Below are positions 28,001 through 56,784 of a stretch of 64,000 nt of DNA, in pieces; position 1 is the stretch's first letter, and every line of letters starts with the position of its first letter. The DNA is from Sphaerolaimus hirsutus (taxonomy: Eukaryota > Nematoda > Chromadorea > Monhysterida > Sphaerolaimidae), in assembly GCA_964036195.1 (NCBI GenBank), contig OZ038453.1, positions 2,127,438 to 2,191,437 on the forward strand. Direction: 5' to 3'. The position numbers were made by a program, and so were the translations under genes. The notes below the pieces were generated by a model. That model saw only the letters and a program-made list of their open reading frames with translations, was not told the DNA's origin and searched no databases.

Positions 28001-31000
28001 GATGCCCTTCTGGCTGTACACAGTGGGCAGTTACCTTTTCCACGGCACAGTGGCCCTGCCATTTCTGAACATTCTCGCATCGCTGATGGCTTTGGTCATT
28101 CCGGCCGCGTGTGGATTTTTGCTAGCCAACAAGAGTCCTAAAGTGGTGCCCACCGTGAAGCGCTACATCAAGATCGTCACCCTCTTTGTGCTGTTCGTCG
28201 TGATCGCAGTTTGGCGTGGCGAAAAATGGGTGCTCTTTTTGGAGAGTGTGATTGAATGGAATGTTGGAAAAAGTGTCTAGAAAGTATATTTAATCAGATA
28301 TCTCTGGGAAAACCTACAGAAATAAATATAAAACATTTTATATTTTCTTATATTTTTTAAAATATAAGCTCCCGAACTTTTTAGAAAGTTAATCACAGAC
28401 CGCGTTTGTAAATATTGCTAAATTTGGTAAAAACCCATTCACATCTGTTCCTTTTTTTTGTTCGAGATAGTTGATTATAGAAATTTTCTGAGCTTAAATT
28501 TAATTATATTTTCTGAAAATCATCCATTTTTCGAACGCTAATCACAGTGTCTTCAATTGCGAACTGGTATATAATCCTGCTGTTGAGATGGTACACGATT
28601 GTGCCGGCCATGCTCTTGCCGTACAGTGGATACATCTTGGCCTATTGTGCTGCTAAGGTTGGTTGGGACAGGCATTTTCATGTTTTCTTTGCTTTACGTG
28701 AATTGCATTTATTGGGTTTCGTTTTTGCGGTATGTACCGTATTACCTCGAAATACTCCCATGGGGGTTTATTATTTCGCCAGCAAAATTTGAGGGGGGGA
28801 TTAATTCGAGGGGGGGGGGGGGGTTATTCGAGGGTTTTTTTTTTATTTTCGTAAAATTCATACTAAAGAATATGCCTTTTCTTACACAAAAACGGTAATA
28901 AATGTGAGAAAATAGGTCATATTGGAGCTATAGATGTACAGCTGTACACAAATGAGCGTACAAGTGTAGCTGCGATGCAAATAAGTAGTAATAAATACAT
29001 AATCTACATTGCATACATGATGTACATCATTCCGGAGGGGGGGTATTTCGAGGGGGGGTTTATTTTTTTCCCAGCCCATTTTGAGGGGGGGTAAATTCCA
29101 GGGGGGGGGGTTATTCAAGAGGGGGTAATTTGAGGTAATACGGTATTCACTACACTACCTTCAAATGTATTTTGAGGTCATATGCGATCAACCCCCCTTG
29201 AAATACCCCCATGGCCCAGATTTGATTAGGAAGGCCCAGCATGCCTGACAAATAGCCTGTTACTCTGCACTGGCACTTATTTATGTCTCACGTTGGAAGC
29301 GTGCCAATGATACTTGACGGCGTCCTAAAAAAAGTCTCAAAGGTCACAAAAAGGTCAAGTTGATGTGTTCACGAAAATTTGAAAAAAATTATTTCAGTTG
29401 TTAAGTTAAAAATTCAGTTAACGTATTCACAACAATGACTTTTTGATTTTAAAATAGAAAAATTGCATGGTTTAATTATCATTGGCATGCTTCCAACGTA
29501 AACGAGACATAAATAAGTGCGGGTGTACAGTATCAAGTCCGCCAATGAAATTACTAAAACATAGTCAAAACATGATCGTTTTTGCAGCTTTTTCGCCGCG
29601 ACGAGCGTGACGCGCGGACGATTATGGTGGGAACGGGCATTCAAAATGCCGCTCTGGTGCCAATCCCAGACCCTGTAAAATAGCCTGTAAAATGTCAAAT
29701 GTCATGCAAAGTGTCAAAAGTCATGGAAAATGCCCTGCAAAATGGCAAACGTACGTTTGCCATTTTGCAGGGCATTTTACATGACTTTTGACACTTTGCA
29801 TGACATTTGACATTTTACAGGCTATTTTACAGGGACTGGGACTGCCTCTGGCCATTTTACTGGTGCAATTGTCGCTGGACGCACCCTACAGGGACATGGC
29901 CATTGTTATACCTGTTAGTTTCCGGTTACGGTACTGGTGCCAGTCCCAGACCCTGTAAAATGCCATGTAAAATGTCAAATGTAATGCCAAGGGTTCAAAA
30001 GTCATGGAAAATGCCCTGCAAAATGGCAACCTGGTTGGGACTAGGGTGCCAAAAAATTTTTTTACGGAAAACGGAAAGGTAAATTTTTTTAACTTTATGG
30101 AAAACGGAAAACGGAAAGGTAAAAAAAAAATATCAGCCGGAAAACGGAAAACTGAAAGGTGAAAAAATTTCACTCAGCGGAAAACGGATACGTAAAAAAT
30201 TTTCAGCTGCTGGAAAATGGAAAGGTAAAAAATTTTCCTGCGGAAAAGCGGAAACGGAAAACAGAAATTTGACACCCTAGTTGGGACTGCCGCCAGTTCT
30301 TCAAAAGGCAAGTCGTGCCTAAATCCGGATCATATTTGGGATTTTAGCCATCCCGTGGTCAATATCCCGATTTCGAATTTTTGAAACTCTCAACCTCAAT
30401 CCCAGAAAATATTGTTAAATTTCAAGTGAAAAAATGACTGTTTGTGCAGAAAAATCTGAATGGAAAAATCCAGTATCTGGCATTTTAAGGTGCATTTTTA
30501 GACCTTTTTGTGAAATGTTACGATGTTCTCCAAATCACAAGTTTTTTGGCCAAAGTCACAATGTCGATCCGGGGAGTTCTAAATGCCAATGCCAATCTCA
30601 AAACCCCAATCACTGTCTCAATCCGCACCCCAGAAATAAAAAATCATTTGTTCCCCAGCTCGCTCAAACCAGGGGGGTTGAGGGTCTATTCCATGGGGGT
30701 AATTCGAGGAAATACGATACACCTAAGTAATTACCGTATTACCGTAAACACCAGTGGTATCCAAACATTGTGCACATTCAACATTTTGAAAGTTTAGCAA
30801 GGGCATCTAAAGTCTAAAGTAATTCGAGGTAATATTTACGGTATGCATCTGAAGATTCTACACGCAAATAAACGCAAATTTCATTTAACACAAAAAATTA
30901 CATAAATACAGTAACAATTATACCGTATTACCTCGAAATACCCCCATGGGGGTTTATTTTTTCGCCAGCAAAATTTGAGGGGGGGTTAATTCGAGGGGGG

Positions 31001-34000
31001 GGGCGTTTCGAGGTTTTTTTATATTATTTCGTCAGAAATTTTCGTAAGAATCGTAGTAAATAGTAGGCATTTACATACCAAAACAGGTAATAAATGTGTC
31101 CAAACAGGTGGACATAAAAACGTAGACAGCTACACAAACTAGTCTATGTGTAGCTGCAAATTAACAGTAATATACATCATGCACATTGCATACATGACGA
31201 ATTTATTATGTACATGATGTACCTCATTCTGAATAGGGGGGGGGGGGGTATTTCGAGAGGGGTTTATTATTTCCCCAGCCCATTTTGAGGGGGGTTATTT
31301 CGAAGGGGGTTAATTCAAGGGGGGATAATACGAGGTAATACGGTAAATACCTTTAAACGAGCGAGTTGCGATACTTCCGCCCGCAGGTGTGCGCGATGAT
31401 GTTGGTTCCATTGCCGCTGTGGATTTGGCTGTTCATCCGTTCTTGCCGCAGCCCCCGCAGCCACTCCGCCGACAAGACGGCCCCCCTCGTCGAACTTGGC
31501 ACAGAGCCAACCGCCGCTCATGACCAGGTGCCAGTCCCGGAGCCTGGAAACTGCGTCGTAAAATGTCAGGTATAGTGATGGAAAAGCGCCATGGCGCTGG
31601 CGCCTGGCGCTAGCGCCAAAGCAAAAAGCGCCATGGCGCTTTGGCGCTTGGCGCTAAAACGCTCTGGCGCCATTGGCGCTTGGCGCTGACGTTTGAGAAA
31701 GCGCCATGGCGCTTTTGGCGCTTGGCGCCATTTTCTGGTGGCGCTATTGGCGCCTGACGCCAGCATTTTAAATGGCGCCAAAAAGCGCCAACCATGATAA
31801 TATAAAATTGTTATAATGCAGTGAAATCCACACTCAAGTTGATCAATTTGAGTACAACTGAATAAATATTATTAATATTACAGTAGACTGTAGGTATTTT
31901 AGGCACCAACATCAAATAAAATCACAGGTGCTAAAATGTGTTTTATTTTTCTTAAGAGATCCTCATATTTGAATGTGGAGCAAATACCTATGTTTTTGTT
32001 CGCTCAAAAGCATACTCCTGTTGTACCCACCTTTTTCTTGTTAAGCCTGAACTTATAAACATTGATAACTACGAAAAAAGTTAATAGAAAGAAAATGGCA
32101 TTTTATGCTTGGCTTCTAATTCTTTCTTGCTGTCTAAATCGGGGTTTACCCCCCTCCAAATGCTCCAGTTATCTATCTATCCCCGGGCCACTCAGCTAAA
32201 ATATCTATCTATCCTAGGCAAAATTTTAGGATACCTTCTTTCCCTGACCCCCCCCCCCCCCGCCCACCCAATCGAATGTATCTAAATCTATCCAGAGCGA
32301 CTTTTTAATAGATATTTTGCTCCGATTTTCACAAAAAATGCCAATTGAATACTTTTTTAAATAGTTTTTCACCTCCAAAACCACCATCGATCATGTGAAT
32401 TGTCACCCATTTTCCACCCATTTATCCACCAATTTTTCCAACTCCACCTTTTAGCTGATTGAGGAACAACGAACTCCCCATTGAAAGCTCTCCAGTCATG
32501 ATGCTTGATTGAAAAATATATCACTGCGGATTTTAACAATTTATAAACATTGTACTAGTTCTTTGAACTGGCAAACGTTCAATGGACGTTCACAGGTATA
32601 CTCAGATGACATTATGCCCATTATTATCGCCCACATCTATCACAGGGAATAGTACCTTGCTGACAACTCGCTGCCAGCTCGCTTGCCAAGCAGCAAAAAT
32701 CAGGCCTAGCTCGCTGACAACGTTTTTGCACCTCGCTGCCAGCTCGCTGACATGTTTTTTAAATGTTGTAATGTGTTTATTAAATAGGTGCTTTCAGCAA
32801 GCTGACAGCTCGCTGCCAACTACACTGCAGCCTTTTACAGCTAGCTGCCAGCTCGCTGCCACACGCTGACAACTCGCTGCCAGCTCGCTGCCACACGCTG
32901 CCAGCTCGCTGCCAAGTGTAAACAACTGCTTGTCAGCTTGTTGTCTCCTAGCTGGCAGCGAGTTGTCAGTGAGGTACTATTCCCTGTGTATGCACTCATT
33001 GTGGCCACACAAGCTGGTTTTCAATGTTCCTTTTTGAAAACTCTTCTGGGCGACGCGTCGCTGTACGGTTTTCGAAACTGTGCAATTTTCACTTTTATTA
33101 TTCAAAAAGTGCAAGCATATGTGAATATTGGTTTCGGCAAGTCACAAACGTCACATTTGCTGAACATTTTGGAAAAGTGTAAGGCGACGCGTCGCCTCTG
33201 TAGCGGCGACGCGTCGCCTTTGTAGCGGCGACGCGTCGCCAACGTCGCCCTACGCGTCGCCGACGTCGCTTTACGCGTCGCCAGCGTCGCCGTACGCGTC
33301 GCCAGCGTCGCCGTATGCTTTGCCATGAGCAAAAAGGCAACGTCGCTGTACGCGTTGGCATGAGCAAAAAGGCAACGTCGCCGTACGCGTTGCCATGAGC
33401 AAAAAGGAAACGTCGCCATGAGCAGAAAAATTTGGAAATGTAGTCGCCAGCGTTGCCGTACGGGTCGCCATGAGGAGGAAAAAATTGAATACAATTTTGA
33501 AAACTTTAAGTATAATTCTGTACTTTTCCAACGTGTCCATTACAGTTTTCAAATATGTCTATACAAGAATAATACTTTGATCACAATTTTGAAAAGTAAA
33601 AATATAATTTTATAGTTTTCAAAAGTGTTCAGTACAGTTTTCAAAGATGTCTACACATTTCCAAAACATTTGTGAAAAGTGTGCATCGCCGGTGATGTAA
33701 AGCGACGTCGCTGTACGTCGCTGTACGCGAAAATTTTCAAATTCTGTGGAACATATGTGAAAATGCGTCGCCGTACACCGAAAAAGTAGCGAAATCGTCG
33801 CCAGGCGTCGCTAGTTTACGGATTTTCGCCAACTTACTTCAAAATCCTTTAAAAAAACATGGATGGATGTGTGAATGTAAAATTGAGAGTGTAGATACAG
33901 TTTTTTTGCTGCATGCAATGATGGGGTCGTAGAAAACTTAGCATTCATATAAAATTAAATAAAATTTTTTTAAAAAAACGTCGCTGTGGCGACGTTTCAG

Positions 34001-36405
34001 GCGACGACAGCATATGTCACCTGTTTACATAACCTATTACCAATTTTGAAAAGTAATTATAGTATGACAGAATTCACATTTTTTTGAACAACGCAGAATC
34101 TGGGACTCGGTACTACTGTTACAAAGGGTTCTACAGTATCATCCTGTTCATCGTTGCGTCTGCTGATTTGCGCATTACGCACGTCGATGTGGGCATGCCT
34201 GGCTCACAGGGTGACACTACAGTTTTGGCGACGTCAAAGTTTGGACAGCGATTGAAGTGAGTATATAATGTTCAAATTGTGTAAAGAATTGTTTATATGG
34301 TTGTTGCATATGTCCCACATTTCCCAGAAATGACGAATTGGTCATGCCGCCAGCGTGCCTGCTGGCTGGTATGCCTAACGAGCCGGAAAACTACATTGAC
34401 AGCTTCTTTATCGGTGATCAGGCTTTTGCTTTGACAAAGAGAGTTATGGTGCCATACTGCGTGCAAACTGGGCAAGATCAAAGGCACTACAACTACCGGT
34501 TAAATTAATCTTGCTGATATTTCAGTGTGCAATGCAATTATTACAAATGGTTTGCATTACAGGTTGTCCCGTGCGCGCCGCTGTGTAGAATGTGTTTTTG
34601 GCGTTTTGGCTGCTCGGTGGCGGATCCTGCTCACCACAATTTCAATGGAACCGCAGAGGGTCAGCAAACTGGTGATGGCCGCGTGTTATTTGCACATATT
34701 TATCAAAGAATTGCGCGGCACAAATGTATCCGACCACTTTGACGAGGAAGGAAATGAAATGCCACCTGTGCGCGCTGTCGAAGAAGAAAGTCTACGCGAC
34801 CGAACGGTTAGAAAATCTGAAATATTTAGTTTTTGATTTCAATTAATTTATAAATATTTCTCAATGTTCTTATTACATGCAGTTAGATTGGCGCTTGGCG
34901 TACAACGGGCTAGATGAAATTTCGAACGCAAATCACTTGGATGAAACGCGAGATGCCCGGGGCATCAGAGAGAAACTGAAAGACTGGTTTAGATCTGCTT
35001 ATGGTAGACTTCCATGGATAAATCCGGATCACTTTTGATTTTTCAAAAATGTTAACGTTAATGTAAACTTTCGTTACGCATTTTAGTATGAAATGACGAC
35101 ATATTTGAAAACAATACATTAAAACAGTTTTTATTTTTTGATGCTACTGTATTGAATGTGAAATCGTCGCAGTGAGTGTTCACTTGTTGTGAATTTTTTT
35201 GCCTTTCATTTCCATGCAAAATTGGCTGTCTGAATTGCACTTGTGATTTTTGAAAAAATTATTTCGTTTATTGTTTAAAAAATCCATTATTTATTTTGCG
35301 GACATGTTATTGAACTGAATTTTTTTTTGTTCGATGCGCAAAAATATGGGCTTTTCCATGTGACAATTGTATAATTACACATACACGGATGTAATATTAA
35401 AAAATTATTTAATGTTTTAAACATAACCACAATTTCTCCATCATCTTTCAACTTATATCGCGAAATATGGTATCAAATGAAAGAGAAAAAAAAACTGGAC
35501 ATGGATCTCAGACGAATATCATCTACAACGTAAAACCGAATTTTAAAAAATATTTGTAGGTAGAAAACGAATTAATTTTTAAAAAAATGTATAACAGCGC
35601 TAAAAATATACAACACAGTCCCAAAAATCAAGCATAATTTTCTGCATCACATGCCGTTTACAGCTTGTCCTACAAATTTGTACTTATTGCACAAAAAATT
35701 ATTTTGTCTGCAGCATTTTACCACACTTTTCAAATATGTGTTCTTCCGGAGGAAAAATAGAAAAAAAGTAAAGATGGCGGCCGTTGGGCTCATTACACAG
35801 ACTGTTTAAATGAATTTGAAAACAAAATAATGGGTTTTCACAGAGGGAACCTTGAAAACCAGCTTGTGTGGGGCCATTGTTGTACCATCAATTTGCAGAA
35901 CAAATTTTTTGGCGCTGGCGCTATTGGCGCTTGGCGCCATTACCCTCTGGCGCCATTGGCGCTTGGCGCTGAGGTTCAGAAAAGCGCCATGGCGCTTTTG
36001 GCGCTTGGCGCCATTTTGCTCTGGCGCCATTGGCGCTTGGCGCCGGGGTCAGAAAAGTGCCATGGCGCTTTTGGCACTTGGCGCTAAAAGCCTGGCGCTT
36101 TTTCCATCACTAGACAGGTGTCTTGTAAAGGTCCATGTAGAGTGGCGTGTGTATCCTAAATTTTTTTTGTATTGTATCCAAATATTATGTTTTGTATCCA
36201 AATCTTGTCCAGTGTGGGATTCGGAGACAAAAACATAACGTTTGGATAGTATAGAATGAGGTTTGGTTACACACACACATGGCACATAACAGGGCTTTTT
36301 ACATAGCACATGACATTTTACAGGGTCTTTTACAGGGTCTGGGACTGCCCCCAGGGGCAGGTGCAGTTGCTGTCAGGCAGCTCTTGTCCAATACCGTGCA
36401 GCTAG
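19050..36405 (+). CDS. SLC10-family (bile acid/Na+ symporter-like, P3-type) membrane transporter
   Basis: Eleven exons join in frame to 515 residues: 19050-19199, 20545-20779, 21993-22177, 23286-23417, 26163-26337, 27997-28215, 28548-28657, 29588-29656, 29833-29913, 31387-31527, 36355-36405. Residues 1-18 look like a signal peptide, and 19-190 form an extracellular region as in P3-like members. From about residue 191 the SLC10 core is clear: QFGQMPL, GCSPAGVASN, DGNLDLSV and TGIQN line up in order with the conserved transporter motifs. Family members carry bile acids, steroid sulfates or unknown substrates with Na+; the substrate here is unknown. The usual ETGxQN reads GTGIQN, losing a Na+-site glutamate. 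Introns 1, 8 and 10 are introners, and intron 3 is a diverged one. Inferred: exact ends of exons 4, 6 and 9. The exon 9 acceptor used here adds GLGLPL. Confidence 0.88.
19294..20009. mobile_element. TA-flanked poly-C/G MITE with nested copy
   Basis: The ends CCGTATTACCTCGAATT and TATTTCGAGGTAATACAG are flanked by TA. A second member (19526-19809, ends CCGTATTTGCTTGAATAG and inverse) is inserted within it. Confidence 0.78.
20023..20477. mobile_element. TA-flanked poly-G MITE
   Basis: The ends CCGTATTTCCTCGAAATAC and its inverse are flanked by TA. The interior closely resembles 314-729 and 38379-38835. Confidence 0.8.
20961..21904. repeat. Palindromic element in SLC10 intron 2 with GGGGACCGGTCCC words
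   Basis: Arms around GGCCCCGGCCGGGGACCGG are inverted. A second inner palindrome is built of GGGACGAACGTCCC-like words (21280-21560). No open frame is supported. Confidence 0.65.
22178..23285. mobile_element. Diverged introner forming SLC10 intron 3
   Basis: It begins GTGTCAATCTCGGACACTG after CTG and its 3' part carries CAGTGTCCGAGACC, the inverse of that end. The interior shows the TGTCAAATGTCATGCAAAGTG signature of the introner family. The target is CTG, so the acceptor in use is probably GCCTGCAG at 23285, three bases beyond the duplication. This keeps frame. Confidence 0.65.
23436..23690. mobile_element. Fragment of TA-type MITE in SLC10 intron 4
   Basis: A clear CCGTATTTCCTCGAAATAC end follows TA at 23436-23437. 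The far end is degenerate around 23690. It resembles 40786-41049 in reverse. Confidence 0.6.
23831..25802. mobile_element. hAT-like element carrying a captured Bel/Pao fragment
   Basis: The ends TAGGGTGTCAAAATAA and TTTGACACCCTA are flanked by the perfect 8-bp duplication CTTCAGGT (23823-23830 and 25803-25810). GGAAAACGGAAAGGTAAA arrays occupy both subterminal regions. The central 1.2 kb is a Bel/Pao pol fragment (24302-25530). No hAT transposase is visible, so the element is non-autonomous. Confidence 0.87.
24302..25530 (+). pseudogene. Bel/Pao LTR-retrotransposon reverse transcriptase fragment
   Basis: This encodes the start and middle of a Bel/Pao reverse transcriptase. The frame is open from 24302 to 25258 and shows the family's order of motifs: the LEAVGITDD entry, YLPHQPVI, RIVYDGLAG, the palm segment IANIEKAFLQIGL, a FGLVCSPA block and the active-site box YVDN. 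The same frame continues past stops at 25259, 25339 and 25360, ending in the recognisable AYDPIGFTAPV region. No gag, protease, integrase or LTR is present. It therefore cannot act alone and rides inside a hAT-like MITE. The box is YVDN rather than YVDD; this variant is also known in functional Pao elements, so it is not by itself a defect. The deleted relative at 8013-8880 keeps only its 3' tail. Confidence 0.85.
26534..26771. mobile_element. GTATACTCGG-family MITE in SLC10 intron 5
   Basis: It begins GTATACTCGGCGGACCGCAT and ends ACTGAGTATA. It shares the AAACACTCCATCATGAC core with 7747-8000. Confidence 0.6.
26926..27965. mobile_element. Long introner-family copy inside SLC10 intron 5
   Basis: The left end carries CCCAGACCCTGTAAAAGACC and the right end TTTTACACGCTCTGGGACT. 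The centre contains ATCCAAATCTT palindromes (27810-27915). A 640-bp element (27069-27709) is nested inside. It lies within an existing intron, so it need not be spliced. Confidence 0.65.
27069..27709. mobile_element. MITE with AAGGGGCTTTCGACCTACT ends and TGACGCA hairpins
   Basis: The ends AAGGGGCTTCCGACCTACTA and TAGTAGGTCGAAAGCCCCTT are inverse of each other. Between 27270 and 27480 it carries a run of small hairpins in which TGACGCA is followed about ten bases later by TGCGTCA. Confidence 0.7.
28735..29145. mobile_element. TA-flanked poly-G MITE in SLC10 intron 7
   Basis: The ends CCGTATTACCTCGAAATAC and its inverse are flanked by TA. The inner part (AATACATCATGTAC-like) is shared with 7468-8999, 30921-31345 and 38187-39023. 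Confidence 0.78.
29262..29545. mobile_element. GTATACTCCGG-family MITE, diverged copy
   Basis: It carries the paired blocks CACGTTGGAAGCGTGCCAAT and ATTGGCATGCTTCCAACG of this family, with degenerate outer ends. Confidence 0.5.
29657..29850. mobile_element. Clean introner forming SLC10 intron 8
   Basis: A near-perfect palindrome of about 190 bp starts GTGCCAATCCCAGACCCTG after CTG and ends GGGACTGGGACTGCCT before a second CTG. Its centre is GCAAACGTACGTTTGC. Removing exactly one target copy plus the element gives ...GCC GCT CTG GCC ATT..., which matches the family spacing TGIQNAALAILLVQLS. A canonical acceptor exists only at 29832 (TTACAG) and would add six codons. Confidence 0.82.
29934..30297. 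mobile_element. Introner copy in SLC10 intron 9, split by a hAT-like MITE
   Basis: It starts GTGCCAGTCCCAGACCCTG and its 3' end GGGACTGCCGCC lies beyond a hAT-like insertion at 30042-30279. It is inside an intron and gives no new splice pair. Confidence 0.7.
30042..30279. mobile_element. Short hAT-like MITE, TAGGGTGCCAAA ends
   Basis: The ends TAGGGTGCCAAA and TTTGACACCCTA are flanked by the perfect duplication GTTGGGAC (30034-30041 and 30280-30287). This is the shortest of the three family copies and has no Bel/Pao sequence. Confidence 0.87.
30921..31345. mobile_element. TA-flanked poly-G MITE in SLC10 intron 9
   Basis: The ends CCGTATTACCTCGAAATAC and its inverse are flanked by TA. Degenerate relatives of the family also lie at 30660-30845. 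Confidence 0.78.
32640..32991. mobile_element. CACAGGGAATAGTACC-ended MITE with CAGCTCGCTGCC array
   Basis: The ends CACAGGGAATAGTACC and GGTACTATTCCCTGTG are inverse. The interior is a run of CTCGCTGCCAGCTCGCTG words. It is related to 5336-6760. Confidence 0.7.
33050..34020. repeat. GCGTCGCC repeat field
   Basis: Clusters of GCGACGCGTCGCC and CGTCGCCGTACGCG words occur at 33050-33480, 33685-33830 and 33975-34020, next to the Harbinger transposase. No coding sequence is supported; the long minus-strand frames here are repeat artefacts. Confidence 0.6.
34097..35038 (+). CDS. PIF/Harbinger transposase, C-terminal four exons
   Basis: This encodes the catalytic and C-terminal parts of a PIF/Harbinger (DDE_4-type) transposase, the nuclease that moves elements with TWA target duplications. 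Exons 34097-34256, 34328-34498, 34563-34806 and 34883-35038 join in phase, with good GTGAGT, GTTAAA and GTTAGA donors. Motifs run in family order: CYKGFYSIILFIVA, HVDVGMPGSQGD (catalytic Asp region), FFIGDQAFAL, NYRLSRARRCVE, CVFGVLAARWR and ACYLHIFIKEL, then TGA. The frame is open, so the part seen could be functional. The N-terminal exons and a first catalytic Asp exon were not found upstream, and no MADF partner gene is visible. It lies inside SLC10 intron 10 on the same strand. It could in principle mobilise the TWA-flanked GCCGGAATTA MITEs, but no shared ends were seen. Confidence 0.85.
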
Positions 36406-39023: not shown

Positions 39024-39588
39024 AATATTCTGAAATGTTTGGAATGCCAGCTGTGACATATAAACAGTTTAGAGGAAACTTGATCGAACACAGACACACT
39101 CAGTTTACACTAACACGTTTACATGATCATTTCTGTTAAAACAGTTTTCACATTAACAACAATAACAACACAAGTTTTCTACTGAAAAAATGAAAAGCTC
39201 ATAATTACCTGTGAATACATTTGAGTTTATTAGAATACACCCTATAGTTGATTGAAAAAAAATTAAAAATTCTAGCCAACCAAAGTGTGTTCAAAGATCA
39301 TGCAAGAGTTACCCCAATTTTTCAAAATTTCAGTAGAAAACTAGTGATTGTGCAAACAGTAGTAATTTTTCATGTTAACATTTTGTTGAGTATAAGCTGC
39401 TAGGCTACAGACAGGTATTATAACAATCTTAAATATTTTATATACCAATTTATAAACCATATTTTTTATATACTGATTCCCCATGATATACTCAGATGGC
39501 TGCATTAATCAAGACATTTATTTTGGTTTCACTCCTATGGCAAAATGCAGATTTTGCAAGTATGTTGTATGCTAAATTTTATTGATTA

Positions 39589-40399
39589 AGCCGGAATTAC
39601 AGCTCAGCGGCGTTTGACGTGAAATGATGACGTCGTAAAATTGATTACATCAAAATAGACAAAGGTACAGCATTGAAATTTCANNNNNNNNNNNNNNNNN
39701 NNNNNNNNNNNNNNNNNNNNNNNNNNNNNNNNNNNNNNNNNNNNNNNNNNNNNNNNNNNNNNNNNNNNNNNNNNNNNNNNNNNNNNNNNNNNNNNNNNNN
39801 NNNNNNNNNNNNNNNNNNNNNNNNNNNNNNNNNNNNNNNNNNNNNNNNNNNNNNNNNNNNNNNNNNNNNNNNNNNNNNNNNNNGCTGCATTAATCAAGAC
39901 ATTTATTTTGGTTTCACTCCTATGGCAAAATGCAGATTTTGCAAGTATGTTGTATGCTAAATTTTATTCATTAAGCCGGAATTACAGCTCAGCGGCGTTT
40001 GACGTGAAATGATGACGTCGTTAAATTGATTACATCAAAATAGACAAAGTACAGCATTGAAATTTCAGAATTAGATAGTTCTAGTAATTGTGGTGTGTAA
40101 TGTCCCAAAAATTTTTTATCAAATAATCATTATTTAAGTAGTTATTAATTTACGTCACAATTTTTTAGTGGCGTAAAATGTTTGACATGAAATGTTGACG
40201 TAGAATGTTTAAATTTTGACGTAAAATTAATAAGCTTATTAATAATAATTATTTTCTTAATTTTTTTAGGACATTACACACAATTCCTAGAACTATCAAA
40301 TTCTGAAATTTTAAACACTGTACCTTTGTCTATTTTGATGTAATCAATTTTATGACGTCATCATTTCACGTCAAACGCCACTGAGCTGTAATTCCGGCT
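39589..40399. mobile_element. PIF/Harbinger-like MITE interrupted by a gap
   Basis: The ends AGCCGGAATTACAGCTCAGC and its inverse are flanked by TTA. An N run and a duplicated flank interrupt it (see the gap entry), so its true length is uncertain. Confidence 0.65.
39684..39883. other. Assembly gap, 200 N, with duplicated flanks
   Basis: Exactly 200 N. The 185 bp before the gap (39499-39683) reappear almost unchanged right after it (39884-40067), which suggests two overlapping contigs placed side by side and not a real duplication. Confidence 0.95.
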
Positions 40400-41049: not shown

Positions 41050-41324
41050 ACCGAATTTGCGGCGACATGTACCAGGTATTTGTCGCTTCACCTCCTATTT
41101 AGCGTTGTGCTGCAACTCCGGCTTAATACGGTGATTCGATGGAGGCTTGCTTTTGTTATTTTATGAAAAAATGTTTTGGGCAACACAATACTGTTTGTTA
41201 AACACTAGTGCAAGTGTTCCTTTAAAAACAATTCATTCTCCACATCACTGAGGCCATTTCAGACACATCCTGGGGGCAGTTCTTACCTTTGAACACAAGA
41301 TTTGGATACAATAAAAAATATTTG

Positions 41325-41475
41325 ATACACATGACACTACAGGATCTTTTACACCACACTTGACATGTTACAGGGTTTTTTTACATGACATTTGACATGT
41401 TACAGGGCTTTTTACAGGATATTTGACATGTTACAGGGTTTTTTACATGACATTTGACATGTTACACGGTCTGGA
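41325..41475. mobile_element. 3' part of an introner-family copy
   Basis: TTTTTACATGACATTTGACATG blocks repeat and end near ACACGGTCTGG. AAGATTTGGATAC lies just before it, as in the long copies at 27.8 and 36.2 kb. Upstream of CUB-B exon 1. Confidence 0.5.
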
Positions 41476-41623
41476 ATCAACACCAGCCCTCTCCACAAGC
41501 TTCACAATCCTATTTTTGGCAGTGATACAAAACTGAATACTCCACATTTGTCATGTAGAATTTCGAACAAAGCCATGCAACTGCTCCAGTATAACTGCTC
41601 CAGTATATGGAAAAAATGTGCAG

Positions 41624-44600
41624 ACAGGCACCATAAAGTCACCGAAACACACTGAAGAGTATTGTTTGGCTCTGAACTGCACATGGATTATAGAGCCATC
41701 TGGTGCCAGTCCCAGACCCTGTAAAACGCCCTGTAAAATGTCAAATGTCATGCAAAGTGTCAAAAGTCAAGGAAAATGCCCTGCAAGATGGCAACTCGTT
41801 TGCTAGATTGCAGGGCATTTTCCATGTCTCTTGACACTTTGCATGACATTTGACATTTTACATTTGCATGACATTTGACATTTTACATTTGCATGACATT
41901 TGACATTTTACAAGGCTTTTAACAGTGTCTGGGAGTGCCCCCTGACAACAATGATATGGCTGTAAAAATTGATTTTAAAGAGTCTTATAATTTCTTAGCT
42001 GTTTTGCACTTGAATGTGACAAATGGCCAAATGGGTGATGAATTGAGGAATGTTTATAATCATCGGTTGGTTTGATGCTGTTGGCATAATTTGTGATGGT
42101 TTATTTACATCAGTTAGTGCCTTTTTGAAGACTTTCTGAGTGTTCAACTTCTCCAAGGAAAAAGTACCAATTTGAATTTTGAATTTCAATTTTAATATTA
42201 ATTTTGTCAAGAAGCAAACTCATAATAGAAATCCACAGTTGACATGTATTTTATATTTGAAATTAAAGCAAACAAAAAATTCAATAAAGCAAATATCAAC
42301 AACATCAATACATGGGGTTGCAATATTTGTACTATGGGGGGTTGCAATATTTGTACTATGGGGGGTTGAAACTCCTAAAAATATGCGTCAGCCCAAACCA
42401 ACACATTCATGATTGGTATGCAACTGTAAAGCCGGAATTACAGCTCAGCGGCGTTGACGTGAAATGATGACCTCGTAAAAATGATTACATCAAAATAAAA
42501 AAGGTAAAGCATTGAAGTTTCAGAATTACCGCAAAACCCTTCGAATAAGACCACCCCCTCGAATATCTCCCCCCCTTGAATAACTCCCCCTGTTTGCGAG
42601 GTGAGGCAAAATTAACTCCCCCCTCGATGTAATCAATTTTACGACGTCATCATTTCACGTCAAACGCCGCTGAGCTGTAATTCCGGCTTTGCGCAAAAAA
42701 AGATAAAGACATTTTGCCAGATAAGAATGTAATGAGGCGATATAAATACCTAGCTGAGCAGCATCCATGATAGGTGCCGGGTGGGTTAATTATTTCACCA
42801 GAAATTTTTTGAAACGCAGACATAGAAAAATGCAACAAAAACCACCATGTATACGAGTCTACAGCCTTATATAAGTATGTAGATGGGTATAAAACATGTT
42901 TTAACCTAACACAATCATTGTTTTTAACGTGTGTTATGCATTGCACGGGTCATAAACCGCAGCTTTTGTCGTTGACGTTCTCTTTACACTCAATTGGGGG
43001 GAGGGGCATTTCGAGGGGGGTGGTTTATAAATTCATAGTGCCCATTTTGAGGGGGGTATTTCGAGGGGGGTATCTCGAGGGGGGTATTTCGAGGAAATAC
43101 GGTAGATAGATAGCTTTAGCATTTGGGAGGTACCCTCAAATAAAACAACATTCAGAATTTAAAAAAAAACATTTTTTTTTTAATTAGAAAGGAAGGTTCA
43201 TTTTGAATAGATCAACCTACAACCTTATTTTCCCAGTATGACTAATGAGTACAATGCCCCGTTCATCACTCCTCCTGGCGCTGGTGCCAGTCCCAGACAC
43301 CTTAAAAAGCCCTGTAAAATGTCAAATCTCATGCAAAGTGTCAAAAGTTATTGAAAATGCCCTGCGAAATGGCTACCGAGTTGAGTTGAGTGCCAACCGA
43401 GTTGCCATTTTGCAGGGCAGTTTCCATGACGTTAGACGCCTTGCATGCAACGATGGGTAAGTTCTCCAAAAAAAAACACTTTCTGTGTTTTGAGTTTTTC
43501 AAAAATGAATACCTGTGTTTTGAGTTTTTTTCTCGAAAAAAGCTTGAGTAACTCTGTTTTATTTTCTGTGTATTTTGTAAAAACTCTAGTTTTTTGAGTT
43601 TTTTACAAAAAAACTTGAGTTTTTCCCCAAAAAACTTGAGTTTTTCCAAAAAATTATGATTTACGGCATTTCTATGTGGAAACAGTGGTTTTCTTATACT
43701 ATATTGGTTTTGCACATGTTTTGCCCCACATAACATCTGTGTATTCATTCAAGTGTCGAAAAAGTCCATAAAATGTCCACAATGAGGACATCCACATCAC
43801 AACACCAGCATCAACTAAAGGCCCAGAAATAACAATTTATGCAGTACTCCAAAATTCTTCAATGGATGTGCACTGTATGGAAGGCTACAGAATGGATTTT
43901 AACTACAACTTCTGTATTACCTTGGAATGGGGGTTTATTATTTCACCAGCAAATTTTGACAGGGGGGCTTATTTGAGGGGCGGGGGGGGGGGGGGGGTTA
44001 TTATTTTGTCAGACAATTGCATAAGGATCATGGTAAATAGTAGGCATTTACATAACCAAAACAAGTTATAAATGTACAAACAGGACATATTTGAAATAAA
44101 CGTGTAGATAGGTAGCTGCACAATCTAGTACAGTCTATGTGTAGCTGCAATGCATATTAGCAGTAATAAATACACCATATACATTGGATAATACATGTAC
44201 ATCATCCCAGAGGGGGGTATTTGGAGGGGGGCTTATTATTTTGCCATTCCATTTTGAGGGGGGTTAATTCAAGGTAATATGGTATATCGAAACATGTTGA
44301 AACTTTAATTGTCAATTCCACCAGGATATGTGCAATTGTGCGTGCCATCTTTAATTTCTTCTTTCTTCCATAATAAAATATGAATACATTTATGTACATA
44401 TTATTTACATATACTATACATGCATATCTTATCTTGTTGAATTAATTTAGCTGAATTCATGTGAATTCAACCACTTCGCTGAGAAAAAACTTAAAAAACT
44501 TTTCTGTGTTTCCGTGTTTCTGTGTTTCTGTGTTCTCCAAAAAAAACTCATTTGAGTTTTGAGTTTTTCAAAATTTGTGAGTTTCCGTGTTTCTGTGTAA

Positions 44601-46264
44601 AACAAAAACACAGAAACTCAATGAGTTTCTGTGTTCAATTTCTGTGTTCTTTCCATCGTTGCTTGCATGACGTTTGACATTTTACAGGGCTTTTTACAGA
44701 GTCTGGGACTGCCCCCTGGTGTCACACTGCAGCTTGTCTCAGATTGGTTTAGGACAGACGGTGGATTTTCTGCTTCATTCACCAGAGTCAATGGTACATC
44801 ATTTTGTTGTTCCTTTTGTGTTTGTTATGAGACTTAATATTATTTACACAGCAAAATTGGGTGCGTGGATGCTCGGTGAATCGCTGTGAAGTGTCTTTTG
44901 AAGTGTACTGTGAGTGTGAAGTGAATCGCTGGCACTCCCCGATGGTTCACCAAGCACGTTACACTCACAGCAAAAAATGGGTGTGTGATGCGCGGTGAAG
45001 TGTCCTGAAGTGTCCTGAAGGTTCTTCACGCAGACACGCAATGTCGGCGTGAAGACACTTCATTACATCCCAGATGCTTCAGGGCACTTCATGAAGCATG
45101 CAAAAAATGCTGCAAAAGTTTGTGAAGTGCACTTCATGAATTTCGGTCTTCGTGAAGCTAGGTGAAGTGAGTGGAAGACACTTCACCGAAAACTTCGTGA
45201 AGCCTTCACAGAGCGCACTTCCACACACTTCACTAACCCATTTTTTGCTGTGACTTTCACACACATCACAAAAGTCTGTGTGAAGACACTTTACAGTTCT
45301 TGTGCTGGGTGCTGCCGGTGGGCGCTGGCACACAAAAGGATACATTAGTGAAGCGTGTAAAAGTGAAGTGTCTCTCACAATTTGTCATTGTGAAGTGTCT
45401 TCCACAATTTTGAACGCATGTGAGTGCACAGTGAAGCAAAGTGTGGCGTGCGGAAGACACTTCATGTGGAATTTCATGCATTGTGAAGATGTGTGGGAGC
45501 ATGCCACTTCATGAACCCATTTTTTCCTGTGACTGGAACAAACTGATCAGTCACTGAGCATCAGCGTGATAAAATGCAGGGAATACAAAGGAGTTCGCCT
45601 GTCTAAGGACAATATATTTCATGTATATTGTTGTTGTTTTTGCATTATTCATGAAAAATGTTAACTAAATTAGGTATTTGCAGGCTTTTAATGAGAGATT
45701 CATCATTTTGATATCCTTCAGAGATTTTCTTGAATTATAAAGAACATTCTGTTTTGAAAAAAAAACAATTGTTGGAATGCTGATCATTACCACATCACCA
45801 AGAAATTTATGTGTCTCAAAAATGCATTCATTCAAAATTCAAGGCACATTCAAAATAATTATTCACCACAAAACAAACTATGTAAATACTTTTCAGTCAG
45901 TGGTTGTCCAGAAACATTTTATGAAGTTCCACACCAGGGGACACTGGAGCTATCATCTGCAGGATTTCCCAAAAGGGGCGGAGTCATGAAGTGTTATTAT
46001 GTGATAGATGGACAACAGGTGAGATATGCACACTTTATTTACCGCATATTCTTGAAAAAGTCCCCCCTCTGAGTAACTCCCCCTGTCAAATAAGTCCCCC
46101 CCTCTGAGTAACTCCCCCTGTCAAATAAGTCCCCCCTCAAAAAACTCCCCCCACTTTGATTGGTAGATAACATTTCCACAACATTTCACATTTACAAAAA
46201 AAGGTTTGATGTATTTAACATGTAAATATATATATATATATCTATATAAATATATATATATATC

Positions 46265-46301
<37 letters not shown>

Positions 46302-49300
46302 GTAAATCCTCGAATAAGTCCCCGGGGGAGTTATTTTTTCCTCAGAATTTTTTGAGGGGGGACTTATTCGAGGGGGGGAGTTATTCGAGGGGGGGAGTTA
46401 TTTCTTCGTCGGAATATTGAGTAAAATACTTGATCAGTATATCGTCTGAATGGGGTTAAGTAGGCTGCATAAATGTGTGAGCCAGAATAGAAATCCCATA
46501 ATTCATGCAATAAAATCAATGCTAGTGTGCATAAACTGCAAAATAATGAATGCTTTTAATGATCATATACATACATACATAAGTTTTTTATACGTGGACT
46601 TTGTTCCCACCCATAAAAGAGGGGGGAGTTATTCGAGGGGGGAGTTATTTTTTCCTCAGTCAGTTTACAGGGGGGAGTTATTCGAGGGGGGGGAGTTATT
46701 CGAGGGGGGGGGACTTATTCGAGGATTTACGGTATATAGAGTTAACTAACGTTGGTTTCACTGCTTGAATTGTGAATTTTATATTCCTACATAGTGATTA
46801 ACAATGGCAAAAAAGATTCAAAAATTCGAAAACATTTTTGAATTTTCGCATTTTTTTGGAATTTTCGAATTTTTATTTTGCCCCTAGAAAAACACTTAAA
46901 AATCGATTTATTTTTCAAAAAGTCAAAAATTCGAAAATTCTTTTCAAATTTTTCAGGGAATTCAAGGCAACAAAACGCACTCTTAAGTTCGACGTGCTAA
47001 ATACAACGACAATTGATACGCGGTGCATATGGAAAAGCGAAACAAAACGGAAAAAGACATCCAAAAACGTTTAAATGTAAAATGCCCTGTAAAGCCGGAA
47101 TTAGAGCTCAGCATGACTTGGTGTAAAATGACGACGTAAAATTACGTCGTAAAATTTATTAAATCAAAATTGACCAAGGTACGGGGTCGAAATTCCGAAT
47201 TGGATAGTTCTACAAATTGTGCTTTATTTCCCCAAAAAATTAAAAAATAATCATTATTTAATTAGTTATTTATTGTCAAAATTGTAACGTTTTACATCAA
47301 CAAAATTTTTACCTAAAATGTTGACATAAAATTAATCTATAAATAAATTAACTAATTAAATAATGATTATTTTTAAATTTTTTTTGCGATATAACACATA
47401 ATTACTAGAACTATCTAATTCTGAAATTTCAACCCCGTCCGTACCTTGTTCTATTTTGATTTAGTTAATTTTACGGCGTAATTTTACGTCGTCATTTTAT
47501 GCTGAGCTCTGATTCCTGCTTTAAATGTGAAATGTCATGGAAAGTGTCAAAAGGTATGAAAATGTCCTGGACAATGGCTTACATATTTGCCATTTTCCAC
47601 AGCATTTCCATGACTTTGGACACTTTGCATAACAATTGACATTTTACAGAGCATTTTACAGATGTCTGCCATCTGGAACTGCCCATAGGACTTGCACATA
47701 TTTATAAGTAAAAGAGATGTGATCAAAGATATACTCCAGCGAAATTACACCTTACAATGAAAGCTACCATATCCCATCTGAATAAAATAACAAACATAAA
47801 TTTTTTTTTGATAAATATGATGAACATTTTTTTATGTTTGTTCTTTTATTCAGATGGGTTATGGTAGATTTCATTGTAGGTGTAATGTCGCTGGAGTATA
47901 AGAGTGGTTTCAAGTATTTGTTTGAGAAGCCCCTGTATTTTGTGCAGTTAGCACTGTATGCAGTGAGTACGCTCAGTGTGCTATACTTGGGTGACATTAA
48001 GCCGGAATTACAGCTCAGCGGTGTTTGACGTGAAATGATGACATCGTAAAATTGATTACATCAAAATAGACATAGGTAAATACAGCATTGAAATTTCAGA
48101 ATTTGATAGTTCTAGTAATTGTGTGTAATGTCCTAAAAAAATTAAGAAAATAATTATTATTTAAAAAGTTATTAATTTTATGTTAAAATTTACACATTCT
48201 ACGTCAACATTTCACGTCAAACATTTTATGTCACCAAAAAATTTTGATGTTAAATTAATAACTACTTAAATAATGATTATTTGGTAAAATTTTTTTGGGC
48301 ATTACACACAATTACTAGAACTATCTAATTCTGAAATTTTAATGCTGTACCTTTGTCTATTTTGATGTAATCAATTTTACGACCTCATCATTTCACGTCA
48401 AACGCCGCTGAGCTGTAATTCCGGCTTTACAGCCTACATTTTTCTGGAGGTGACCCTCCATCATGACGTCATAACCATAGTCCGCACTGAACTGCGGCTG
48501 ACTGAACCATTTCCGAGTCAGGATGAAGTGGAGTGGAGTGGGGAATCGGTTCACAAGTTTTTGGTTGGCTGTCTGCCAGCCAAAGATATAAATTATATCT
48601 ATTTGTAGATTATCATGTCTGCAGAGTATAGCCACTTTTAAAACAGTCCAAATTCTGTGTTTAAAGCTTCACATACAATATTTTTACGAAAAATTTTAAA
48701 ATTATTTGAAAAATTTGAAAAATAGCCAAAAAAATTTGAAAATTGCCAAAAAAGAAACAAAAATTCGAAAATAAAATTCAAATTGAAAAATAAAATTCAG
48801 GAAAAATTCGATGATTCGAACTTTCATTTCAGAAAAAAACACTTTAAAATTTAAATACTTTTTTGGAGGGTTTGCCATCGTTAAAGCCGGAATTAGAGCT
48901 CAGCGTCGATTCGACGTGGATGTCAAGTTGTTCCCTGACGTAAAATGATGACGTGGAATGATAAAAATTGAATTTTTCAATTCGCTCTAGTTGTGGCTGA
49001 TAACACTCAGTATTGGACACGATTAAGGTATTGATTCATATATTATCCTTAGAAAATTGTAGACCCGTAGCATGATCCACACTCGTGTAATTAATTTCAC
49101 GACGTCATTTAACGTCGTCATTTCACGTTGAATCGACGCTGAGCTCTAATTCCGGCTTAACAGTGATGGAAAAACGCAATGGCGCTTTTGGCGCCAAAAC
49201 GGTCTGGCACCATTGTCGCTTGGCGCTGTGATCCTGAAAAGCGCCAAGTCTGGCGCATTTTCCATCACTATTCCTACAAATGATTATGTTATCAAATTTA

Positions 49301-52300
49301 CCCTGTTCGTGCAGTGCATATTTCTGAAAATGCTGACAAAAAAATAACTCCCCTCTCGAATAACTTCCATTTCCTGAATAACCCCCTCTCAAAAACTTCT
49401 GACCAAAAAATAACTCCCGGAAGACTTATTCGAGGATGTATGGTAGTAACATGCTTATATTTTCATTTGTGAGCTAATCTGCTGTGAGCAGGGTTGGTTT
49501 TAGTAAAATTCTTTTTACTAAAATTGTATTTTATTTTTATTAAAATTGTATTTTATTTTTATTTTATTCTTCAATTTTCCATTTTATTTTTATTTTATTC
49601 TTCAATTTTTCATTTTATTTTTATTTTTTATTTTAGTTTGTGACCAGGATTGATTTAAGTAAAATTCTTTTTACTAAAATTGTATTTTATTTTTATTAAA
49701 ATTGTATTTTATTTTTATTTTATTCTTCAATTTACCATTTTATTTTTATTTTATTCTTTAATTTTCTATTTTATTTTTATTTTTTTCTGAGATTTTGCCA
49801 ACCCTGGCTGTGAGGTGTTATGTAAGAAGTGTCAGGTATTTTATAATGGGCACCTAGTGTCAGGTATTTTATAATGGGCACCTAGTGTCAGGTATTTTAG
49901 TGTCAGGAATAGTGATGTAAAAGATCCATGGCGCTGGCGCCTTGCGCTAGCGCCAAAGCAGAAAGCGCCATAGCAATTCTGGCGCTTGGCGCTATTTTGC
50001 TCTGGCGCCATTGGCGCTTGGCGCCATCCCCATGAAAAGCGCCATGGAGCTTCTGGCGCTAGGTGCTATTTTTGACTGGCGCGGCACTTGGCACTAGCGC
50101 CAAAGCAAAAATCGCCATGGCGCTTCTGGCGCTTGGCGCCATTTTGCTCTGGCGCCATTGGCGCTTGGCGCTAGAGGTCGGAAAAGCGCCATGGCGCTTT
50201 TGGCGCTTGGCACCAAAGTTGTGGCGTGTTTCACATTACTAGTCAGGAAGTGCCAGATATTTTACAATAATAAGCAATCTTGTATTCTAATGCAGGCATG
50301 TGCGAATGATGTGCACTGTTCAATAAAATTGACACTTCAACACTTCAAATCATCTGGCGCAGCTGAATCTTGGCATTTGTATGAAGCTGCCCACAATTCT
50401 GCAAAGAATGGCGCTGCAGTGCTCAGGTGAAACATTTCTTGTATTGTCAGTGGACTTATTAATGCCATACAGTAAAAAGGAACAACCACAGCAAAAAAAT
50501 AGGTTTGTGAAGTGTGTGGAAGCGGGCTGGATGTGCGTGAAGCAACCTCTGTGAAGACACTTCCACACACTTCACCACACATCACAAAGTTTTTCAAGAT
50601 TGTTTGTGAAGTGTCTTCCACACACTTCACCAATCATCACAGGGACCGAAGTTCATGACGTGCACTTCATGAACTATTACAGCATACTTTGCATGGTTTG
50701 TGAAGCGCTGGGAAGTGCCAACGAGTGCTTCACAGCGTTGGGGAGTGTCAACATGAATACACTTCACGATGCTTCACACGATGCTTCACGACGTATCACA
50801 CACCCATTTTTTGCTGTGATCATTTGTTTTGCAACATGACATATTTATATCATATATGTCAGGAGTCCAGGACAGTTTTGCAACATGATTGCAAACTGAT
50901 TGTATTCACCAGTAGTAGTGTACCCAAAAAAGTTCTTTGTGCTCACCTAACTGTTTTCAATGAACTAAATTAAAGCTTTACCATGATTAACCATACCTGC
51001 AGCATCGGCAATGCAAATGACGTCACACTTCCAATGGAATACATTTCACTGGGGCAGCGTTTGGTCATTGAACATTCTCTGGCATCTTCCATGGGAACTG
51101 GTGGATTCAAGCTCACTGTTGAGAGATCTGACAGTCACAACCATGGTTCTATTATTTTTTTAGTTTTATATGAGTCTAAGTATGAATATGTTGACTTTTA
51201 CTAGGGATCTTTACAAATGTACCATTATGTATATGTATACAATTGAGTAATGTCCTAAACAAATACACACTACTTCAGCATGTAGATGTCTGGATGCATC
51301 ACAGACAATTAGAACACCCAGAGAAATGACCTCACCTGGCTACCCAAATCTACAATACTGCCACAATATGAACTGTGAGTTTTCTTTTGCATTGTGTCTC
51401 CTAAATTCGTTTACATGGTTTCATGTGCTGACAAAACATTGAGTTAGAAATTCCATAATCCCGGTGTAAAGTTTCATATTGGCAAGAAAATGCAGTGAAG
51501 TATACTCACTTGTTGAGTGTACACACATGCCAATTTGTGGATAATTAGTGATTGTCATTGAATTTTGATTATGAATTCAAGTTTTCATTTTGAAACTGAA
51601 CTGACAACTGAAATTCATTTTAAAACTTGACCACTTCCACTAATTATCTGCAAATTGGTCTGTGTGTACACTCAACTCAACTAGTGGGTATAATTCACCG
51701 CCTTTTCTTGCAGATATGAAACTTTATACTGGAATTATGGAACTTTCTGACTCTCTGAATTTTTTGTCTGCACATAAATCAGTATAATTTTTGTTATTAT
51801 GGTGATGTTTTCAACTGGAATCCTCAAACAACAACATTACAGCCTACATTTTTCTGGGGGTGACACTCCATCATGATGTCATAACCGCAGTCCGCAGTGA
51901 ACTGCGGCCAATTGAACTTGTTCCGAGTTGGCTTGAAGTGACTGGCTTGAAGTGTGCAGTCGGTTCATAAGTTTTCGCTTGGCTGTCTGCCAGCCGAACA
52001 CATAAATCATATCTATTTGTAGAGTATCATGTCTGCCGAGTATACCTAAAACTTTTCCACACCATTCATGTTTTCAGGCAGTTATCAATTCGAATGTGAA
52101 AAAGGCCAATTTGCTCGATTTGTTCTACATGACTTTTCTGGGGCGGACAGCTATGATTATCTGGACTTCTTTGACAGAAATAGCTTGCATCATCCCTCTG
52201 GTCTGCTAAGGCAAAGGTCTGTTTAGCAAGTGTATATCATGCCTTGTTGAGTACACTGGGACTACAAAGATGGTTACAGCTTGCTGTACTTGATTATGAT

Positions 52301-55440: not shown

Positions 55441-55593
55441 AATGTTTGATGCTCTGATATTAAAATGCTCGATTACTTTGATTTTCGTCCGTTTTTGTTA
55501 AGATTTCAGGTTTCAGGTTTTGCTTCAAATTTCTGACACTTTTCCGTTTTGAAAGTGAAAATGGTTTCCAAAGTCGCTTTTTATTTTTCCAAG

Positions 55594-56784
55594 GACTTCC
55601 AGACACTGTAAAATGCCCTGTAAAATGTGAAATGTCATGCAAAGTGTCAAGAGTCATGGGAAATGCCCAGCAAAATGGCAACCGAGTCACCATTTTGCAG
55701 GCATTTTCCATGACTTTTGACACTTTGCATGACATTTGACATTTTACAGGGCCTTTTACAGGACTTCCAGACACTGTAAAATGCCCTGTAAAATGTGAAA
55801 TGTCATGCAAAGTGTCAAAAGTCATGGGAAATGCCCAGCAAAATGGCAACCGAGTCACCATTTTGCAGGCATTTTCCATGACTTTTGACACTTTGCATGA
55901 CATTTGACATTTTACAGGGCCTTTTACAGGACTTCCAGACACTGTAAAATGCCCTGTAAAATGTGAAATGTCATGCAAAGTGTCAAAAGTCATGGGAAAT
56001 GCCCTGCAAAATGGCAACCGAGTCACCATTTTGCAGGCATTTTCCATGACTTTTGACACTTTGCATGACATTTGACATTTTACAGGGCCTTTTACAGGAC
56101 TTCCAGACACTGTAAAATGCCCTGTAAAATGTGAAATGTCATGCAAAGTGTCAAAAGTCATGGGAAATGCCCTGCAAAATGGCAACCGAGTCACCATTTT
56201 GCAGGCATTTTCCATGACTTTTGACACTTTGCATGACATTTGACATTTTACAGGGCCTTTTACAGGACTTCCAGACACTGTAAAATGCCCTGTATAATGT
56301 CAAATATCATGCAAAGTGTCAAAAGTCATGTAAAATGCCCTGCAAGATGGCAACCGAGTCACCATTTTGCAGGCATTTTCCACGACTTTTGACACTTTGC
56401 ATGACATTTGACATTTTACAGGGCCTTTTACAGGACTTCCAGACACTGTAAAATGCCCTGTAAAATGTGAAATGTCATGCAAAGTGTCAAAAGTCATGGG
56501 AAATGCCCAACAAAATGGCAACCGAGTCACCATTTTGCAGGCATTTTCCATGACTTTTGACACTTTGCATGACATTTGACATCTTACAGGGCCTGTTACA
56601 GGACTTCCAGACAGTGTAAAATGCCCTGTATAATGTCAAATGTCATGCAAAGTGTCAAAAGTCATGTAAAATTCCCTGCAAAATGGCAGCCGAGTCACCA
56701 TTTTGCAGGCATTTTCCATGACTTTTGACACTTTGCATGACATTTGACATTTTACAGGGCCTTTTACAGGACTTCCAGACACTG
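55594..56784. repeat. Tandem array of seven 168-bp introner-like palindromes
   Basis: GACTTCCAGACACTGTAAAA recurs at 55594, 55762, 55930, 56098, 56266, 56434 and 56602, with a closing partial copy at 56770: an exact 168-bp period seven times. Each unit has the introner interior (TGTCATGCAAAGTGTCAAAAG and inverse) and differs by only a few bases. Because 168 is divisible by three, the minus strand is open for 272 codons, which is not evidence of a gene. Confidence 0.9.

Follow-up and report, generated by a model that had tools for sequence, protein, structure and literature searches.

A CWG-targeting MITE in exons of one copy of a CUB-domain gene pair, and its possible part in intron birth

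The CUB-domain gene pair

The 64-kb window, by which we mean the whole stretch of 64,000 nucleotides analysed here, holds a CUB-domain gene in two copies of opposite orientation, CUB-A and CUB-B, and, near CUB-B, an SLC10-like gene on the plus strand (about 19.05-31.5 kb). The parts of the pair that enter the comparison are as follows.

5084 down to 1591, minus strand: CUB-A, compared exons
4885-5084, minus strand: CUB-A exon 1, uninterrupted, 200 nt, with the empty site CTG at 5006-5008
3863-3984, minus strand: CUB-A exon 2, uninterrupted, 122 nt, the empty site of a second insertion
41624-51374, plus strand: CUB-B, compared exons
41624-41702, plus strand: left piece of CUB-B exon 1, 79 nt, aligned with the CUB-A exon
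41945-42065, plus strand: right piece of CUB-B exon 1, 121 nt, aligned with the CUB-A exon
43237-43283, plus strand: left piece of CUB-B exon 2
44719-44793, plus strand: right piece of CUB-B exon 2

The six compared exons sum to 814 nt in either copy and are all open, and the joined products match the CUB domain (6.1e-06 for CUB-B, 2.4e-07 for CUB-A). Synonymous divergence between the copies is 0.11, and dN/dS over the six exons (271 codons) is 0.48, with a bootstrap range of 0.26-0.89, which suggests that constraint acted on the pair over much of its divergence and is silent on whether CUB-B works now. The copies differ most in exon 1 (dN 0.12, dS 0.17, against 0.033 and 0.095 in exons 2-6).

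CUB-A and CUB-B are separated by two 200-N gaps, the second of which (39684-39883) is flanked by 166-bp stretches that are 99% identical (39499-40049), possibly an assembly overlap left unmerged. Both features would fit a reading in which the copies are divergent alleles or products of misjoined contigs. We regard this as very improbable, given their opposite orientation and a dS of 0.11, and the comparison of filled and empty sites set out below holds even if the two are alleles.

The insert in exon 1 of CUB-B

The sequence-only reading of this locus had described a palindromic transposon within the first exon of CUB-B, with the intact exon kept in its paralogue, and the structural part of that description stands. 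The insert and the sites within it are listed here.

41703-41941, plus strand: MITE, 239 bp, left end GTGCCAGTCCCAGACCCTG, right end (reverse complement) GGGGCACTCCCAGACACTG
41700-41702, plus strand: left copy of the target duplication, CTG
41942-41944, plus strand: right copy of the target duplication, CTG
41732-41862, no strand assigned: central palindrome, arms 41732-41794 and 41800-41862, 90% complementary
41703-41704, plus strand: candidate 5' splice site GT (CTG/GTGCCA), U1 pairing estimate -3.8 kcal/mol
41934-41935, plus strand: candidate acceptor AG (GGGAG/TGC), in frame and stop-free, adding 9 nt (VPP) with the donor at base 1

The CUB-A exon runs without interruption over its 200 nt (5084-4885), the same length as the 79 and 121 nt of the CUB-B pieces taken together; the reported palindrome of 242 bp with a duplicated CTG is recovered as 239 bp between two CTGs plus one of them, and GT does form its first two bases. 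The empty site GAGCCATCTGACAGCAATG (5015-4997, minus strand) matches once in the window with three mismatches allowed and never in 100 shuffles, and the joined flanks of the CUB-B insert align locally with CUB-A, gap-free, at 105 of 120 bases. The insert is a strong inverted repeat, nearly a palindrome, and RNA of 41690-41960 is predicted to fold far more stably than 200 shuffles of it (z = -13.6); such a hairpin could help splicing or hinder it. Its first 19 bases have eight matches in the window at up to three mismatches, where 0.01 would be expected, and thus mark a repeat family. Transposon insertion into a coding exon, as had been proposed, is supported by the target duplication, the terminal inverted repeats and the empty paralogous site, and further by a second clean pair of filled and empty sites in exon 2 and a third, weaker pair upstream.

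Further insertions and the order of events

CUB-B carries three insertions of this family, and each occupies a CWG triplet of which CUB-A has a single copy. The two additional ones are the following.

43284-44715, plus strand: second insertion by this family into an exon, 1432 bp long, in CUB-B exon 2, target CTG/CTG
41273-41483, minus strand: third insertion, lying antisense and upstream of CUB-B exon 1, flanks CTG/CAG with CAG at the CUB-A site; left end placed by eye

At the second site, the empty counterpart in CUB-A is a single CTG across which 120 joined bases align gap-free; the interior of this insertion (43448-44662) has no match to the exon-1 element. At the third site, similarity of the left flank to CUB-A is limited to some 23 bases, and the right flank shows small gaps at a distance from the site itself. 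Insertion by the family into exons is shown by an empty paralogue in two CUB-B exons, and on the CUB-A side of the window (below 9.98 kb) the end-motif scan found no family end scoring at least 17.

Three gains in CUB-B are the simplest history, and entry of the elements after the duplication, as the sequence-only reading held, is well supported as the plainest interpretation of three filled and empty sites; the direction of change is deduced from this comparison, and loss from CUB-A by precise excision is possible in principle. The latter reading, in which the elements predate the duplication, draws on the generally precise excision of PIF/Harbinger elements such as mPing (PMC4561436, as far as its available text goes). 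It requires three independent losses in CUB-A, which keeps one CWG at each of the three sites, and we consider it highly improbable. On the preferred history, the insertion into exon 1 is probably recent.

The element family and its likely relation to NuwaI

An end-motif scan that ignored the flanks found 13 termini scoring at least 20, and none in 100 block shuffles, both strands included. A CWG triplet adjoins 11 of the 13; the exceptions are the terminus at 27966, which belongs to a degraded copy, and that at 29848, whose end would have to be one base shorter to fit. Eight elements have two recognizable ends, not counting a degraded pair in an SLC10-like intron (26919-27966, without CWG at 27966), the tandem array at 55590-56773 or fragments such as 10501, 25830, 27739 and 47523-47668. 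One end starts GTG in all eight, and orientation is set by that end; the other, right end starts GGGGC in five. Their flanks read CAG/CAG in two cases, CTG/CTG in three and CTG/CAG in three, so that in three of the eight the middle base (W) is not the same in both target copies. All 16 flanks are CWG, with some ends placed by eye with the flank in view. The listing of repeats covered 20 of the 55 repeat families in the window. The array at 55590-56773 consists of tandem 168-bp units that derive from the same MITE family as the CUB-B insert.

With Tourist-like MITEs and mPing, the 239-bp insert shares its short length and inverted repeats, and mPing also has a target duplication of 3 bp. PIF/Harbinger elements differ in their target, TWA (PMC4482050), where the target here is CWG. 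The closer likeness is to NuwaI, which the available part of its description presents as a group within PHIS with a CWG target duplication, terminal inverted repeats of 12-61 bp and ends that are usually GGG, found in 16 animal genomes and in animals only, and mobilised by a DDE transposase together with a Myb/SANT protein of the same group (PMC4482050). Shared features are the CWG target duplication, the inverted repeats and an animal-like host. At the termini the likeness is partial: five of eight right ends start GGG, as is usual in NuwaI, and all left ends start GTG. An animal host is suggested by the CUB-domain genes and by the bile-acid-cotransporter-like SLC10 gene, in keeping with the restriction of NuwaI reports to animals. 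Going by these characters, the insert is most likely a non-autonomous DNA transposon (MITE) of the NuwaI group in the PIF/Harbinger (PHIS) superfamily, and the family as a whole likely belongs to NuwaI.

In the window, no transposase attributable to the MITE family was found. The 3'-most family member in the SLC10-like gene (31528-36351) contains a nested block, 31573-36112, with TAGTGATGG ends (TAGTGATGGAAAAGCGCC), and fragments of a DDE_Tnp_4 (HARBI1-like) transposase lie at about 34.1-34.8 kb; because they sit within the nested block, with its different ends, they were set aside and are not credited to the surrounding element. A repeat at 49910-50241 resembles this nested block, with TAGTGATG ends and GTCAGGAA (8 bases) on both sides, identical flanks such as a hAT element would leave. 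Two family patterns sought by exact scan in contigs of other genomes, and one sought in viral contigs, returned no matches. The 64-kb window contains no tRNA and no Rfam match at gathering thresholds.

Putative element-bounded introns in the SLC10-like gene

The exons of the SLC10-like gene were modelled from open frames and consensus splice sites. Their joined product, taken as far as part of exon 9, has a match to SBF (5.3e-26), and its transporter portion to chains of bile acid cotransporters (best 2.5e-30). Five of the gene's 11 inferred introns (1, 3, 8 and 9, plus a 3'-terminal one) are bounded by the element at both ends.

19200-20544, plus strand: intron 1 (inferred), element 19200-20541 plus the right CAG
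22178-23285, plus strand: intron 3 (inferred), element 22178-23282 plus CAG, flanks CTG/CAG
29657-29847, plus strand: element of intron 8, flanks CTG/CTG, right end one base short
29937-30296, plus strand: intron 9 (inferred), element 29937-30293 plus CAG, flanks CTG/CAG, right end placed by eye
31528-36351, plus strand: same-family element at the 3' end of the gene, flanks CAG/CAG; the exon after it is speculative

Inferred introns 1, 3 and 9, which resemble each other at both borders, begin at the first base of the element, and a CAG at the target position closes each of them, which would make their removal exact; in introns 3 and 9 the left target copy reads CTG. Competing AGs lie 7-32 bases before the exact ends (19 and 7 bases in intron 1, 19 and 11 in intron 3, 16 in intron 9, and others further up). 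These five distances would all shift the frame, none being divisible by three, and of these choices only the exact end keeps it with a donor at base 1; the AG 19 bases before the end of intron 1 (TTTACAG) looks more typical. Intron 8 would be solved differently: its right end is one base short, and an AG at 29832 therefore keeps the frame, adding 18 nt. The best-chain score of this join is 107.0 bits against 109.1 bits for an exact join, which would lack an AG, and the difference does not decide between them.

Each of the seven elements that border a modelled exon is in sense orientation, for which random placement would give 0.0078, an optimistic figure since the elements helped to place the edges. 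The Pfam match (residues 193-368) spans no element border, and the structure-chain match extends past intron 3 by three residues and past intron 8 by six; with so little overlap, homology shows a single transporter gene, and the borders rest on reading frame and element anatomy. On these grounds we hold it quite probable that the family makes introns, an idea that draws more on the SLC10-like gene than on CUB-B.

Other irregularities in the gene are an apparent one-base frame break in exon 9 (29851-29936), judged by eye, which may be sequence error or damage, and a possible 11-nt exon at 30297-30307 with a GC donor (AAG/GCAAGT). A 321-codon open frame at 24296-25258 matches RVT_1 weakly (5.2e-4, which falls short of the curated cut-off) and is perhaps a retrotransposon remnant.

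Could the CUB-B inserts be spliced?

The search for splice options took in donors lying between 10 bases ahead of an element and 40 bases inside it, and acceptors lying between 70 bases ahead of its right end and 40 bases beyond the duplication. As the right target copy in exon 1 is CTG, no AG lies at the exact end and exact removal is impossible. Of the acceptors in the element's final 70 nt, GGGAG at 41935 is the one that is in frame and free of stops, and it exists because a G replaces the C of the seven other right ends; ten bases before it stands a more typical TTTTAACAG, which leads to an in-frame TGA. An exonic AG at 41980 would drop 36 nt from the exon, and read-through of the insert meets a stop at 41804-41806. 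This in-frame AG is weak evidence of splicing, since chance could have made it: 11 of 180 single substitutions tried would create one, which puts the coincidence at 12-32% for two to six changes. A donor 18 bases into the element, with GT in five of seven cases, would keep the frame and was rejected; its U1 pairing is estimated to be weaker (-1.6 versus -3.7 to -6.8).

A working new intron in exon 1, running from the GT at 41703 to the GGGAG at 41935 and adding VPP, is conceivable and, in our judgement, doubtful. In its favour are a GT at the first base and an in-frame AG made by a G that the other right ends lack; the hairpin could bring its ends together, and introners that add or remove codons are known (PMC9860276, in the part available). 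The acceptor looks weak after GGG, with the more typical AG upstream, and the insertion in exon 2 would have to be solved as well. The U1 pairing of the donor (-3.8 kcal/mol) lies within the range of 18 ordinary modelled donors (-1.2 to -11.1) and is hence non-decisive. Productive splicing of the exon-1 insert is accordingly rated from its sequence as something we would not expect, albeit with a real chance.

For the insertion in exon 2, a donor at base 1 finds no in-frame acceptor within the element, and the in-frame AGs lie only in the downstream exon, where their use would drop 24 or 39 nt; the alternative inside the element, an internal donor at 43321 that adds 54 nt, has very poor U1 pairing. 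Two exonic insertions in one gene, the second lacking an internal acceptor in frame with the base-1 donor, together with the stop met on read-through and the raised divergence of exon 1, also fit a decaying CUB-B in which exons 1 and 2 were broken and any transcript is non-productive, and to this we give nearly an even chance. The six compared exons are otherwise free of stops and length changes, as they would also be after a very recent break, and this bounds only its age.

The exon-1 insert is thus a possible proto-intron or a broken exon. The sequence-only reading had gone further and seen recent intron birth at this site, a claim that we do not uphold in that form: the CTG of the right triplet bars exact removal, the sole acceptor within the element looks weak, and exon 2 too carries an insertion without an internal acceptor in frame with its base-1 donor. 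Birth of an intron here appears somewhat less likely than breakage.

A proposed model for intron birth at CWG targets

The explanation that we favour, and think rather probable as a whole, combines a NuwaI-like MITE, its entry after gene duplication, a GT supplied by the element and an outcome set by the target triplet. A NuwaI-type MITE would insert at CWG and duplicate those three bases, and one such element probably entered a CTG in exon 1 of CUB-B following the CUB-A/CUB-B duplication. With a family end that starts GTG, insertion in sense orientation sets a GT exactly at the exon edge, as the sequence shows, and splicing from it is predicted. A right triplet CAG would supply the AG and make the whole insert exactly removable, as in the inferred SLC10-like introns 1, 3 and 9. 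A right triplet CTG would leave a GT without an AG at the exact end, giving at best an imprecise proto-intron (9 nt added at GGGAG) and otherwise a broken copy.

More tentatively, and at somewhat less than an even chance, we propose that a CWG-targeting, NuwaI-like transposon has turned introner in an animal: its asymmetric left end would bring the GT, a CAG target would yield an exact intron at once, and a CTG target would yield a frame-breaking proto-intron that needs one further change, be it CTG to CAG, the loss of one base or a new AG in the right end. We hypothesize that introns at CTG targets may be rescued by such changes under selection. The antisense element upstream of CUB-B, which lies in no recognised exon, has CTG/CAG copies as well with CAG in CUB-A, so differences between target copies seem to arise without splicing too.

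By analogy, this mechanism would be a variant of one already described, since introner families are on record in which the element brings one splice site and the target duplication provides the other, including a carried 5' site and a borrowed 3' site (PMC9860276). The introners surveyed by Gozashti et al. 2022 (PMC9860276) are likewise non-autonomous DNA transposons at exon edges, the difference being that the introns here are predicted ones. Introner elements of Amoebophrya (PMC7789003) share inverted repeats with hairpin potential and direct repeats of 3-5 nt at exon/intron borders; they differ in their dinoflagellate host, in lying among non-canonical introns and in that no family-specific inverted repeat was detected, according to the sections available. 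The accessible description of NuwaI does not mention intron-making (PMC4482050). In a text search, PMC9860276 was not among the papers matching the word 'Harbinger', and we found no report of a Harbinger-type introner in the open-access literature, which is not proof of absence.

Significance

To our knowledge, few recent intron gains can still be compared with their empty site. If the introner proposal is true, the window would span stages from a fresh insertion (CUB-B) to a settled intron (the SLC10-like gene). Introners are rare in animals in a large survey: among the animals and land plants covered by Gozashti et al. 2022, the available text places them in only two taxonomic groups, both animals (PMC9860276). 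If the family splices, a named transposon group with a three-base target would be linked to intron birth, and a rule testable across the genome would follow, by which the same element in CAG and in CTG targets should differ in splicing and in survival.
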